Positions 2,089 to 27,802 of a stretch of DNA of 36,164 bases are shown here, piece after piece. Below the pieces are notes generated by a model. That model was not told where the DNA came from and did not search any database. It saw only the letters and a list, made by a program, of their open reading frames with translations. Positions within the stretch are counted from its first letter, which is position 1; every line of letters begins with the position of its first letter. This DNA is from a virus: positions 1-36,164 of the IMG/VR virus record IMGVR_UViG_3300049595_002293. One strand, written 5' to 3'. A program made the translations under genes and the position numbers.

Positions 2089-2676
2089 TTAACAGAGAAT
2101 GTGCCCCCTTGGCTCGTAAATATCCTTAAAACGTTCGATTGCTTTCCCCGTATCTTCCATGGGGGGCAGGTACACCAATAGTGAGGTGCACGTTTTATGC
2201 ACGCCAACGCCTGTGCTCTTGCGAACTGTTAACGTCGGTGGCGTCCGCAAGATGCAGATGGGAAAATCAAAAATCTTAAACTCGTAACGAATCATGTCCG
2301 GGCAGTTGGTAAAGTACAAGCCCTGACTTACTTCTCTCGCTAACCAGCTGCGGTAAAGTTTTCGGAACCACACCGCATGTGACGATGTCAAAGTTGGAGA
2401 AGAAGACCGTGTCATCTTCCAACGTTCATTCTTCTTGTCCCAGAAGTATGCACCACTGGGAGGAAAGACGTAAACCTTGCCGTACCACGTTTGGCAGTTC
2501 AATCCATCGTCAGATGGAGTGAAATACTTCTTGGCATCGACGTATTCATTTGCAAAATCCGAGCTGGCAACATCAAGATCAATACCCTCCATCAGGGCGT
2601 GCGCTGCTGAAACCAGGTCAGAACTTGTGATTAACTCACGATCTTCTGCGTGAGCCTTGATGTTTTCAATTGCCAT
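2089..2676 (-). CDS. Dam-like DNA N6-adenine methyltransferase relative, atypical active site
   Basis: The central part matches phage N6-adenine methyltransferases of the Dam type: DLDVASS (33-39) corresponds to their LDVAAS strand, and YFTPSDDGL (51-59) followed by WYGKVYVFPPSG corresponds to the YFTxxDDGL...W.GxVxxNPPY segment. The catalytic N/D-P-P-Y is replaced by F-P-P-S at 71-74, so the protein may be inactive, have altered chemistry, or only bind DNA or SAM. The 195-residue length fits the family. Its start overlaps the stop of the upstream gene by one base, indicating translational coupling. A role in modifying phage DNA against restriction would be the usual inference, weakened by the motif change. 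Confidence 0.6.
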   Translation of the reverse strand: MAIENIKAHAEDRELITSSDLVSAAHALMEGIDLDVASSDFANEYVDAKKYFTPSDDGLNCQTWYGKVYVFPPSGAYFWDKKNERWKMTRSSSPTLTSSHAVWFRKLYRSWLAREVSQGLYFTNCPDMIRYEFKIFDFPICILRTPPTLTVRKSTGVGVHKTCTSLLVYLPPMEDTGKAIERFKDIYEPRGHILC

Positions 2677-3062
2677 CAGTTTTCTGACACTTTGGTATAG
2701 TCGATCTCCAAGTAACGCATGCCCGCTGCATCATTGATGATGTAACCAGCTTTTTCCGCTGGATCAATCTTCTGTGCGGCACTGAGGATACGCCTGAATG
2801 TCTCAGCTAAATCACCATCATTACCGCGTTCACACTCCTCTTGCGCTGAGTGCATCTCTTTTAGCGTCATGAAGAACATCGAACGGTCGGAATTGTCAGG
2901 TTGAAACACCATCACCCCTGGACCTTCATGCTCCCACATTTTGCAATAATGCTGCCCCATGTCACCAAGGATCAACTTGATAGTGGCATCAAGCATCTTG
3001 GCTTTCGTTTGATCAAGTTCAGGACCGATTACCGATGCGATCAACTTTTCACGACGGCTCAT
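2676..3062 (-). CDS. hypothetical protein
   Basis: A 128-residue, soluble, mostly helical protein I do not recognise. The N-terminus is basic (MSRREKLIAS), the middle contains HYCKMWEHEGPGVMVF, and the C-terminal part ends in a short strand-like MRYLEIDYTKV. No zinc ligands in pairs, Walker motifs or membrane segments. It overlaps the preceding gene by 14 bases and the methyltransferase-like gene by one base, so it is made from the same transcript as these two. An accessory role with the methyltransferase is only a guess from position. Confidence 0.6.
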   Translation of the reverse strand: MSRREKLIASVIGPELDQTKAKMLDATIKLILGDMGQHYCKMWEHEGPGVMVFQPDNSDRSMFFMTLKEMHSAQEECERGNDGDLAETFRRILSAAQKIDPAEKAGYIINDAAGMRYLEIDYTKVSEN

Positions 3063-21588: not shown

Positions 21589-21738
21589 ATGGAAAAGAAA
21601 AAGCCTGTTCCCCCCAAGAAAGCTGTGCCTCCCGCCAAGGGAAAAGGTGGCGCATCTGCCAAGCAAACCGAGGCTCGCGATAAGTTCAAAGAGATGATTG
21701 CCAAGAAAAAAGAAGCTGCTGCCAAAAAGAAAAAGTAA
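21589..21738 (+). CDS. 49-residue lysine/alanine/proline-rich protein
   Basis: The product (MEKKKPVPPKKAVPPAKGKGG at the start, a short KQTEARDKFKEMIAKKK helix, and an AAAKKKK end) is about one-third lysine and resembles the tails of histone H1-like proteins. It could condense phage DNA or be packaged with it; this is inference from composition. Own -10-like box upstream; directly followed by the structured leader at 21739. Confidence 0.6.
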   Translation: MEKKKPVPPKKAVPPAKGKGGASAKQTEARDKFKEMIAKKKEAAAKKKK

Positions 21739-21838
21739 CGCTCTTGTTGTGATATCCTAACAGCGGAGCAATTCCGCTCTAAGGGTAATAGTCGAAACCC
21801 TTTCCACGTTACGAATGTAGTGTTCCCAAAAGAGCGGT
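21739..21838 (+). ncRNA. candidate structured RNA leader with competing stems
   Basis: This 100-base stretch has no gene and can form several stems. AGCGGA/TCCGCT (21762-21778), AAGGGT/ACCCTT (21781-21802) and CAC..TAC-GAAT-GTA-GTG (21805-21822) are local hairpins. AGAGCGG at 21831-21837 can pair either with CCGCTCT at 21774-21780, which would break the first hairpin, or with CGCTCTT at 21739-21745 (using AAGAGCG), which would enclose all three. A strong terminator follows 12 bases later and the next start codon directly after it. Competing stems before a terminator suggest an attenuator or riboswitch-like leader, or a small RNA. No known family matched. Confidence 0.45.
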
Positions 21839-21849
21839 AAGGAAGCTAT

Positions 21850-21877
21850 AATCCCGGTATAACAACCGGGATTTTTT
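21850..21877 (+). terminator. rho-independent terminator in front of the 21878 gene
   Basis: AATCCCGGT, a six-base loop and ACCGGGATT form a 9-bp GC-rich stem, with the run of six T residues at 21872-21877. The GTG start of the next gene follows with no space, so transcripts entering from upstream would end exactly at that gene unless termination is prevented. Confidence 0.85.
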
Positions 21878-22546
21878 GTGACGACTCTTGTTGCCAACGT
21901 ACCGCCAACCAAAGTGTGGGTGCGGCGAGAGTACCTGCGTGATTTAAAGGATGGTCATGGTGAATACACGCCTGGTTATTGGGTAACCTGCAAATCATTG
22001 ACAGGCCGTGCTTTGTATTTTGAAACATACCTTACCGAGTATGGTGCGCTGTATGACAAGCTTCCCATCAGTGCATTCCTTGCATGGGACCCTAACCATC
22101 CGGAAAAACCAGAAAGTCCAACCCCTGACCTGGAGCTGACTGATCTGCAGTTCTGGAACGGGTTTGATCACGGGCTTACGGTGATTGAAAAAAACTTGAT
22201 CTTCAACATGCGTTTTGAAGTCATGACAAGAAGCGCAGGTGTAATCAGCGGCACATACTTATTTACAATTGACAATTACCATGCACATCGGAACGAACCC
22301 GATTTTTATTTTGCGGAATTTCCCGATGAACACAAATCTCATAACATCGTTGCTTTGGACAACGGTCAAATTGGCGCTTATCCCAATAATCGCTGTCGAA
22401 TGGTTGATCCATCACTGACCAACCACGACCTTAAGACACCTGACTTCAAGGTTTCTACACGATACTTTGATGTTGAATGCGCCCACAAATGGGGTCGCCT
22501 TGGAGAATGCGACGATTACTTTTGGAAAACTCCAAACGAGGAATAG
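21878..22546 (+). CDS. conserved hypothetical phage protein
   Basis: A 222-residue protein starting at GTG right after the terminator T-run; the first residues (TTLVANVPPTKVWVRREYLRD) look native, so the start is credible. Strand-rich middle (GYWVTCKSLTGRALYFETYL, then LYDKLPISAFLAW) and conserved-looking aromatic segments (LTDLQFWNGFDHG). The second half, MRFEVMTRSAGVISGTYLFTIDN, also looks like beta structure. I recall homologues in cyanophages without assigned function. No enzyme motif, no membrane segment. No Shine-Dalgarno sequence is visible because the terminator hairpin occupies that place. Confidence 0.65.
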   Translation: MTTLVANVPPTKVWVRREYLRDLKDGHGEYTPGYWVTCKSLTGRALYFETYLTEYGALYDKLPISAFLAWDPNHPEKPESPTPDLELTDLQFWNGFDHGLTVIEKNLIFNMRFEVMTRSAGVISGTYLFTIDNYHAHRNEPDFYFAEFPDEHKSHNIVALDNGQIGAYPNNRCRMVDPSLTNHDLKTPDFKVSTRYFDVECAHKWGRLGECDDYFWKTPNEE

Positions 22547-22579: not shown

Positions 22580-22828
22580 GTGCCCACTTCCAGGCAAAAG
22601 CTTCAAGAAAACCGAAAGAAATTCTTGGAATACAAGAAAACTCTTAAGTGTGAGCACTGCGCCCTGGAAGACCATAGAGTCCTTGAGTTTCACCATGTAG
22701 GTGACAAGGATTTAAATGTGTCAAGTATGGTCAATCATGGATACGCCTGGCGCCGCATCCAAGAAGAAATCAATAAATGTATTCCGCTATGCTGCAACTG
22801 CCACAGGCTTGAGCACTGGAATGATTAA
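22580..22828 (+). CDS. HNH endonuclease (small, CxxC zinc type)
   Basis: An 82-residue HNH nuclease: CEHCALEDHRVLEFHHVGD has the first CxxC and the catalytic HH, followed by SSMVNHGYAWRRIQEEINKC and IPLCCNCHRLEHW with the second CxxC and final His. This is the compact form typical of free-standing HNH enzymes. The GTG at 22580 is preceded by a TTG; either may start, and TATATT lies 23 bases upstream of the GTG. The 3' end overlaps the convergent dps gene by four bases. Probably a homing-type endonuclease; a role in DNA packaging, known for some phage HNH proteins, is less likely here. Confidence 0.85.
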   Translation: MPTSRQKLQENRKKFLEYKKTLKCEHCALEDHRVLEFHHVGDKDLNVSSMVNHGYAWRRIQEEINKCIPLCCNCHRLEHWND

Positions 22829-23379
22829 CCATTCCGCAACGTAGCCTTAATAAACCAAGCAGCTTTAAATGCCTGGCCAACAAGATCAGCCATGTAGTTC
22901 TGGATGTCAATTGCACCAACCTTTTGTGCTACCGGCTCAAGCTTCTTGGCTTTCATGCCCAGCTCTTCAAGGTTTTTGTAGTACACGCCAAGCATGTCAG
23001 TGCCTTTGTAAGAAGTCACCGCTTGCATGGGAGGAGCAGCATCTTTAAGCCCACAGCCACACATTGGCATCAGGTAGTCCATGCTGCGAACAAACTCAGC
23101 AAGGGTATCGAACTGTTCCAGGTGAGCTTCGTATTGATCTTTTAGGAATGCATGGACCCCAAAGAAGTTTGATCCCTCATAATTTAAATGGCAAAGGTGT
23201 GATTGGGTCTCAAGTTCTTTGAGGTAAGCGCAAAGTGAAATGCACTGCTGGATAAATGCACCCACATCACCACCAGCCTTGGATTTAGCAGGAGTTTTAG
23301 GTTTGTCCTGGGGCTGAGGAACAGGTTGTGCCTGAGGAGTTTCCGCAGCCTGGTACTGTTGAGGGGCAGGAGTATACAT
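22825..23379 (-). CDS. dps: Dps-like ferritin (DNA protection during starvation protein)
   Basis: Dps proteins oxidise and store iron, remove peroxide and may bind DNA. The 184-residue protein begins with a Gln/Pro-rich extension (1-34), then the four-helix core. HLNYEGSNFFGVHAF carries His64 and His76, and FDTLAEFVR carries Asp91 and Glu95, which correspond to the ferroxidase ligands shared between subunits in Dps. LMPMCGCG adds cysteines not usual in the family. The N-terminal extension is Pro/Gln-rich and might be the DNA- or virion-contacting part. Phage-encoded Dps homologues exist, but function in infection is not settled. Confidence 0.8.
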   Translation of the reverse strand: MYTPAPQQYQAAETPQAQPVPQPQDKPKTPAKSKAGGDVGAFIQQCISLCAYLKELETQSHLCHLNYEGSNFFGVHAFLKDQYEAHLEQFDTLAEFVRSMDYLMPMCGCGLKDAAPPMQAVTSYKGTDMLGVYYKNLEELGMKAKKLEPVAQKVGAIDIQNYMADLVGQAFKAAWFIKATLRNG

Positions 23380-25472: not shown

Positions 25473-27802
25473 TGCGAGGCTCTGGAGCGTTCCGGGCAGT
25501 AGTAGCACCTGGTGGCGTACTAGCTGGCCCATGGGTACGTAATGAACTATGGCGTCGTGCTCGTGCAGTGCCGTCACTGGACCTGCGCTTTGCTGATGAC
25601 AAGAGCCTGACGGATGCAGTTACTGGCCAATCGCTGGTGACCTTCACCCGCGCCAGCAGCGGCACGTACGTGGGCAGCGACGGGCTGATTAAGACCGCGA
25701 CGACGAATCTGCTGCTGAGGAGTGAAGATTTTGCAACTACTTGGACACTGGTTACAGCTTCCATTAGTTCTGACGTCACCATTGCCCCAAATGGTACGAA
25801 TACAGCCGATAAGCTCATTGTAAACAATGGCCAGAGCGCTGGATACGCTGCGCAGACTACTTCTTTCGTTAACGGACTGACCTACACCGCTAGCTGCTAT
25901 GCCAAGGCTGGAGAAGTTAGCGATTTTCGTTTTGTATTTGAGTCTGCCGCATTTTCCTCAAACCTAAACGCAGTCTTTAATCTTGCGACTGGCACAGTCT
26001 CTTCTTTCACTGCTTCGTCTGCCAGCATCCAGCCTGTTGGAAATGGCTGGTATCGCTGTATTGCAACGGCAACAGCGACTATTTCTGCATCAGCCGGTGT
26101 TCAATTTCGGTCTGTTCATGCAGGTAATGGTGCCAACGGGATATTTCTCTTTGGCGCCCAACTAGAGCAGTCCAGCACGGTCGGTGAATACGTCCCCACC
26201 ACCGGCACGATCAACTCGGCCCCACGCTTTGATCACAACCCCACGACCGGCGAGAGCCTGGGGCTGTTGGTGGAGGAGCAGAGGACGAATCTTGCGCTTT
26301 ATAGCCAAGCAATCAATTTAACAAACTGGGGTACTCAGCAAGCAACAACTCAGACTCTTAATGCGGCAACATCACCAGATGGCAGCTTAAATGCCACGTT
26401 GCTGGCTGAGAACACACAAACAGCACCACGGTTTATTGCCCAAACAGTAGCCGTAACCAACGCGGCGTACACTGTTTCAATTTTTGCAAAGGCAAAAGAA
26501 CGCAAGCGGGTAATGTTCCGAGAAAATACCACATCAGGAACAAGCGCGACGTTCGACCTACAGTCCGGAACAGTTGCAGGATCTGAAGGCAGCCCAACGA
26601 CAAGCATCCAGCCATACGGCAACGGATGGTATCGGTGTGTAATGACGTACACGCCGTCGTCGTCTTCTAGCAGGATTCACGCAGTTTATTTAATGCCAGA
26701 TTCCGGCGTTTCGTTTGCGACTGCAAGCTACACCGGAGACGGAACTTCGGGATTGTATTTGTTCGGTTTTCAAGTTGAGCTTGGCGCCTTCCCCACCTCC
26801 TACATCCCCACCACCACCGCAGCCGCCACCCGCGCCGCAGATGTGGCCAGCATCACGGGGTCGAACTTTGGGACGACTAGGACGAACCTGTTGTTGCGGA
26901 GTGAGGCAATAGCAACATCCCCTTGGTTTACTGGAGCTAACACTACGCTGACCAACAACACAAGTGAAGTGCTAGATCCAGCGGGCGGATCGACAGCAAC
27001 AAAAGTACTTGTATCAGGGGGAACTGGCGCATTTGGACAAGGCGCAACGCTTACCGCCGCTATTCATACAGGAAGCATTTGGCTAAGGTGTTCTACTGGC
27101 ACCATATCAGCAAGCTTAATTGTTTACCTATCAGGATCTCCTTTTACAAACATAGGTACAGCAAACGTAACAATTACAACATTTTGGCAGCGCTTTACCG
27201 TTGTCACATCTACGGCAACTGCTGTTGCTTATAACTTGCAGCTCAACAACATTGCCGTAGGAACTGTCTACGCCTGGGGCGCCCAACTAGAAGTAGGCTC
27301 TGCTGTAACGCCATATATTCCTACAACAACCGCTGCTGTTAGCGTGTTTGAAAGCTCCTGGTATCGGCAGGATGAGGGGACGGTGTTTGCGGATGTGCTG
27401 CGCTCTTACTCTGGAAATTTTCCTATATTTTCAAATATCGTCTCTTTTAACGATGGCACCGCTAATAATCTATTCGCAATGTACGGCGTTTTAGGTAGTC
27501 AATTCGCAACCAACTTCTCGGTCCAGTCTGGCGGGGTGGGGCAAACAGACTACGTTCAGGTAGCTACAAATGTTCCTGGCCCAAACCGCATTGCGCAAGC
27601 TTTGGCTGTTAATTCATCTACGTTGGCAGCCAACGGAGCACTTACGCTACAGGATAGCTCCGTTGCAATGCCTGTTGGCATAAACCGTGTAGCCATCGGC
27701 GCTGATCGCTTGTCTCAGTCTCAATGGGGAGGCCACATCCGCCGCCTCACCTTCTTCCCCCAGCGCCTCCCGAACAGCACTTTGCAGGCAATCACGCAAT
27801 GA
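25472..27802 (+). CDS. large tail adhesin with three carbohydrate-binding-like repeats
   Basis: A 776-residue protein from the ATG at 25472. After an N-terminal LDLRFADDKSLTDAVTGQSLVTFTRAS segment common in phage head-spike/fibre proteins, three similar units follow, each opening with TNL-L/A-L-x-S (near residues 78, 272 and 474) and each about 170-200 residues. They contain a jelly-roll pattern with GNGWYRCxxT and a closing FGAQLExSxxxxxYxPTT. The C-terminus (GHIRRLTFFPQRLPNSTLQAIT) is a known fibre end. The repeats suggest a triplicated carbohydrate-binding module that recognises host surface glycan. Its GC content is higher than that of the surroundings and its relatives appear widespread in phages of other bacteria, which suggests acquisition by exchange. 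Confidence 0.75.
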   Translation: MRGSGAFRAVVAPGGVLAGPWVRNELWRRARAVPSLDLRFADDKSLTDAVTGQSLVTFTRASSGTYVGSDGLIKTATTNLLLRSEDFATTWTLVTASISSDVTIAPNGTNTADKLIVNNGQSAGYAAQTTSFVNGLTYTASCYAKAGEVSDFRFVFESAAFSSNLNAVFNLATGTVSSFTASSASIQPVGNGWYRCIATATATISASAGVQFRSVHAGNGANGIFLFGAQLEQSSTVGEYVPTTGTINSAPRFDHNPTTGESLGLLVEEQRTNLALYSQAINLTNWGTQQATTQTLNAATSPDGSLNATLLAENTQTAPRFIAQTVAVTNAAYTVSIFAKAKERKRVMFRENTTSGTSATFDLQSGTVAGSEGSPTTSIQPYGNGWYRCVMTYTPSSSSSRIHAVYLMPDSGVSFATASYTGDGTSGLYLFGFQVELGAFPTSYIPTTTAAATRAADVASITGSNFGTTRTNLLLRSEAIATSPWFTGANTTLTNNTSEVLDPAGGSTATKVLVSGGTGAFGQGATLTAAIHTGSIWLRCSTGTISASLIVYLSGSPFTNIGTANVTITTFWQRFTVVTSTATAVAYNLQLNNIAVGTVYAWGAQLEVGSAVTPYIPTTTAAVSVFESSWYRQDEGTVFADVLRSYSGNFPIFSNIVSFNDGTANNLFAMYGVLGSQFATNFSVQSGGVGQTDYVQVATNVPGPNRIAQALAVNSSTLAANGALTLQDSSVAMPVGINRVAIGADRLSQSQWGGHIRRLTFFPQRLPNSTLQAITQ

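Follow-up and report, generated by a model that had tools for sequence, protein, structure and literature searches.

A probable stand-alone structured small RNA adjoining the phrog_3704 gene in S-EIV1-like cyanophages

Sequence comparison among uncultured cyanophages suggests that a conserved element of about 113 nt most likely encodes a structured small RNA that stands alone, with promoter and terminator signals of its own, rather than being a switch of the gene next to it. The element was analyzed in a 36,164-nt stretch of viral DNA (IMG/VR record IMGVR_UViG_3300049595_002293, positions 1 to 36,164; hereafter the window), where it occupies positions 21765–21877 of the plus strand, immediately before a phrog_3704 gene starting at 21878. 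This reading is favored by the finding that the RNA is intact in units and records without phrog_3704. The window belongs to a phage related to Synechococcus phage S-EIV1: the protein encoded downstream of the element shows 86% identity, and for a large ORF elsewhere in the window S-EIV1 was the only match in the phage collection. Among the phage records searched, this isolate is also the closest relative of the uncultured phages carrying the RNA.

The conserved unit and its distribution

A protein scan together with pattern scans of IMG/VR yielded 50 distinct sequences of the element, counting that of the window, from uncultured S-EIV1-like cyanophages. A covariance model built from 46 of them found one strong copy per RNA-bearing record searched, and had no match in the whole S-EIV1 record or in several relatives of 58 to 84 kb. 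Given these full-length relatives without the RNA, S-EIV1 included, the RNA is not essential to the S-EIV1-like group. Searching 50,697 phage records with the RNA gave no match, and blastn of three variants against cultured phages returned nothing or only short chance matches at E = 5. Regarding a host origin, a pattern scan of genome_contigs was empty, and the single match in 300 Cyanobiaceae genomes (G113) was rejected as a terminator look-alike. At the gathering threshold, no Rfam 15 family, glutamine riboswitch included, matched the window; a loose threshold gave only three matches, far below gathering scores, with E of 0.25 or more. Neither ARAGORN nor Rfam found a tRNA or tmRNA in the window. 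An earlier note on this DNA, which stated that the element resembles neither a tRNA nor the glutamine riboswitch, is borne out by these searches.

The sequence common to the relatives starts with TGATATCCT or a variant of it (21750–21758, plus strand). Upstream of it lie several unrelated kinds of small gene, in the window one that by its sequence encodes a 49-aa lysine-rich protein (21589–21738, plus strand). The pattern TGnTAnnnT, with three variable middle bases, is found 6–8 nt before the first stem in 48 of 48 distinct sequences; it is that of an extended −10 promoter, with TATCCT (21753–21758) as the hexamer in the window, and at the level of the motif it represents the RNA's own putative promoter, as expected of a small-RNA gene. 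From the position of the −10, the 5′ end of the RNA is placed at the first stem, at 21764–21766. In many relatives the TG overlaps the stop codon (TGA) of the upstream gene, which partly explains its conservation there; in the remaining relatives, the window included, the TGA is not that stop codon. Defined by the covariance model and the homologues, with the 3′ end taken from the terminator, the predicted RNA thus covers 21765–21877. The earlier note had drawn the unit at 21739–21877; its end at the terminator holds, whereas the conserved unit of the homologues begins only at about 21750.

Comparison of the relatives further points to the following fold of the unit (all features on the plus strand). 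Stem P1 (21765–21780) pairs GGAGC (21765–21769) with GCTCT (21776–21780) around the loop AATTCC; 97.8% of its cells are paired, and two pairs are altered on both sides, in one sequence each (L179). In stem P2 (21781–21802), formed by AAGGG (21781–21785) and CCCTT (21798–21802), each of the five pairs is altered on both sides in some sequences (64 cells), with 98.2% paired. The conserved P2 loop reads AATAGTCGAA (21787–21796), in which AATAGTCG and AAUAGUCG are invariant. A putative hairpin, P3 (21806–21818; ACGT 21806–21809 with ATGT 21815–21818) is conserved in sequence with an invariant TTA, 97.1% of it being paired and no pair altered on both sides. Before the terminator lies a conserved purine-rich stretch, AAGGAAG (21839–21845), with AGGA invariant. 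Finally, the unit has its own predicted intrinsic terminator, another feature expected of a small RNA (21850–21877; stem 21850–21858/21865–21873, U-run 21872–21877). It tops the list of terminator-like sites within the surrounding 4 kb and is found in 46 of 46 sequences of the model alignment, with one pair altered on both sides.

Covariation over the whole structure reached 0.211, against 0.132 for shuffles (none of 500 reached it) and no more than 0.091 for slid versions, although related sequences can exceed shuffles without any structure and the alignment was fitted to the model. The region also folds better than its dinucleotide shuffles (z = −3.4; 1 of 200 equally good), the terminator contributing part of this excess. 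Two further pairings, a long-range closing stem (UUCC/GGAA) and a hairpin P4 whose split point, set by eye, may not be right, are plausible in single sequences and were set aside, as neither showed covariation in the test used. Four short leaders (L052, L054, L066 and L067) were likewise rejected as members, matching chiefly through the terminator. At 2846–2960 of L045, the P2 loop core AGUCGA is accompanied by UUCCACCUUAC and AGUGCU, although P1 is not clear and the terminator stem differs; it is a probable distant member of the family.

Retention of the RNA without the phrog_3704 gene

The phrog_3704 gene of the window (21878–22546, plus strand; 222 aa, GTG start) begins on the first base after the U-run, which confirms the strong terminator, ending at 21877, and the gene start on the next base that had been described earlier. 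Its start is correct, as alignments with the homologues of other cyanophages begin at residue 1. No Pfam domain was found in its product, and annotations of the homologues vary (PurM, ferredoxin, transcriptional regulator or hypothetical protein). On the minus strand at 22825–23379, the window also encodes a possibly Dps-like protein, matched to a PHROGs DNA-binding protein and a Pfam ferritin-like domain.

Directly after the RNA, about four fifths of the distinct units have a phrog_3704 homologue or, in L040, an unrelated HNH gene that abuts the terminator, starting on the base after the U-run, so the RNA may have some role in cis. The HNH endonuclease gene separates the RNA from phrog_3704 in L040, L041 and L042 (about 2479–3000), and 144 codons were read in L040.

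Nine distinct units have no gene abutting the terminator (L085, L092, L096, L120, L154, L161, L193, L212 and L232); they represent a few lineages and are not independent of one another. All of them except L096, which fell outside the search, were searched for phrog_3704, and it was absent from eight of eight records; three of these measure 82.6, 85.7 and 84.0 kb, and the rest are fragments in which absence is less telling. The RNA is intact in all eight. After the terminator, eight of the nine units carry a −10 element (TATAAT or TATGAT) and then a GTTCCC hairpin accompanied by tRNA-Leu or other material, and L232 carries a different gene, again with a −10 between. In many other relatives the unit led by the GTTCCC hairpin sits after the phrog_3704 gene; most simply, two elements were retained and the gene that separates them elsewhere is missing. 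This second conserved unit consists of a −10 hexamer and a GTTCCC-CTCT...GATGGGG hairpin, after which come tRNA genes or other sequence, as seen on the minus strands of L092 and L212 and near 3688 of L095; one pair of the hairpin differs among relatives (C-G or G-C).

The linkage to a regulated gene that is expected of an attenuator or riboswitch was therefore not observed. As far as these sequences tell, the structure is conserved independently of the neighbouring genes, as expected of a small RNA.

Competing explanations and a candidate promoter in the terminator arm

The earlier note had interpreted the region as mutually exclusive stems, fitting transcription attenuation or a ligand-responsive leader of the 21878 gene. 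The complementarity that it pointed out is present in the sequence: AGAGCGG (21831–21837, plus strand), its proposed switching strand, can form seven Watson–Crick pairs with CCGCTCT (21774–21780), which as described also contributes the 3′ strand of a local hairpin, and AAGAGCG (21830–21836) is complementary to CGCTCTT (21739–21745). The exclusivity of the stems is unsupported. The first CGCTCT copy (21739) lies upstream of the inferred promoter, outside the conserved unit, and is not conserved; the pairing with the second copy scored 13.9 within sequences versus 13.6 between them (p = 0.06). Covariation in the homologues favors P1 and P2 but not, at a significant level, the alternative pairing. 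The region of AGAGCGG is variable in sequence and length, and in relatives it often forms a local hairpin.

We consider it unlikely that the RNA from about 21765 is the 5′ UTR of the gene, in which a ligand, a protein or the ribosome decides between termination and read-through. Such a leader resembles known attenuators and riboswitches with terminators in having stems and then an intrinsic terminator at the start codon. Indeed, the terminator ends on the start codon or a few bases before it in two branches of the gene family that have diverged to 31% identity, the strongly conserved loops are aptamer-like, and most distinct units directly precede a phrog_3704 homologue. Against it stand the RNA left intact where the gene is absent, the HNH gene abutting the terminator in L040 and the insignificant covariation of the alternative pairing; moreover, inspection of the alignments by eye revealed no anti-terminator sequence. 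We also rejected a small ORF that would run across the terminator, with an SD-like AAGGAAG, an ATG and a stop in the loop: judged by eye it lacks conservation, its start or stop being absent from several relatives and the window itself having ATA.

The gene probably has a −10 of its own within the 5′ arm of the terminator, as suggested by the sequences of the units. The six bases before CCCGG in this arm read TATAAT in the window (21847–21852, plus strand) and TATGAT, TAAGAT or TAGGAT in all other gene-abutted units. TAnnnT occurs here in 39 of 39 units with an abutting gene versus three of nine without (Fisher p = 7e-6, a lead rather than a probability, the sequences being related and not independent; 42 units were first classed with a gene, and L161, L212 and L120 were moved on reading, their "genes" being short frames in a tRNA or hairpin unit). 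From this hexamer (TATAAT/TATGAT), the mRNA of the 21878 gene is predicted to start 6–8 nt downstream at 21858–21860, in the terminator loop. In the RNA-less relatives L006, L020, L026, L031, L033 and L034, another conserved leader is found about 50 nt before the phrog_3704 start; it reads TTCTAATTTGYTCCTAATTTGAA...ATTAGGAGTTCATT(C)AGGA and has repeated and inverted CTAATTT motifs.

Quite improbable, in our view, is a combination in which a free small RNA is made by default and regulated read-through yields part of the gene mRNA; the adjoining positions of RNA and gene in most relatives would suit it, yet we found no element specific to such a dual role, and the gene already has a candidate promoter. 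That the region merely punctuates adjacent genes with a terminator and promoters, with no functional RNA, is very improbable: the terminator and both −10 elements cover part of the conservation, but both P1 and P2 show covariation, and sequences that otherwise differ share an invariant P2 loop.

Predicted action and relation to known RNAs

We return to the stand-alone small RNA, for which we propose a putative model. The host RNA polymerase would initiate at the extended −10 promoter (21750–21758), and about 113 nt (21765–21877) would be transcribed and fold into P1, P2 with its fixed loop AAUAGUCGAA and the third conserved hairpin. The intrinsic terminator would then halt transcription. A separate start from TATAAT (21847–21852) would serve the abutting phrog_3704 gene, and its mRNA, starting in the terminator loop, would be unable to form the terminator. 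The RNA would most likely act in trans, targeting an RNA or a protein of host or phage through the P2 loop and the purine-rich AAGGAAG. Crude duplex predictions gave no clear candidate for a P2-loop target in the window, where, apart from the reverse strand of the RNA itself, the exact 8-mer complement CGACTATT occurs once, at 26076 of the plus strand inside an ORF. The fuller proposal, of a previously undescribed phage RNA family acting in trans on the cyanobacterial host through AAUAGUCGAA, with the promoter of the next gene inside the terminator of the RNA, is put forward tentatively as a possible scenario.

Phage-encoded small RNAs include PreS of lambda and CfrI of cyanophage S-PM2 (reviewed in PMC12197685). 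The present RNA would resemble them as a small RNA encoded by a phage, here with promoter and terminator signals of its own; it differs in being unmatched in Rfam and in the phage records searched, in its placement between genes, not against one, and in its structure with a fixed loop. Structured RNAs before cyanophage genes are also known as cis-regulatory motifs, namely wcaG, manA and PhotoRC-II (PMC2864571) and glnA (PMC12197685), all described with the genes that they are thought to regulate. Unlike them, this RNA matches none of these motifs in Rfam and persists without the gene; in contrast to attenuators and riboswitches, it has no supported exclusive pairing and no visible anti-terminator, and is conserved where the gene is absent.

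In summary, the covariance model makes this RNA family searchable. The −10 inside the terminator arm, if confirmed, would be a compact way of separating two transcripts with zero spacer. An RNA that is retained without its neighbouring gene offers a handle on how these uncultured phages act on picocyanobacteria.
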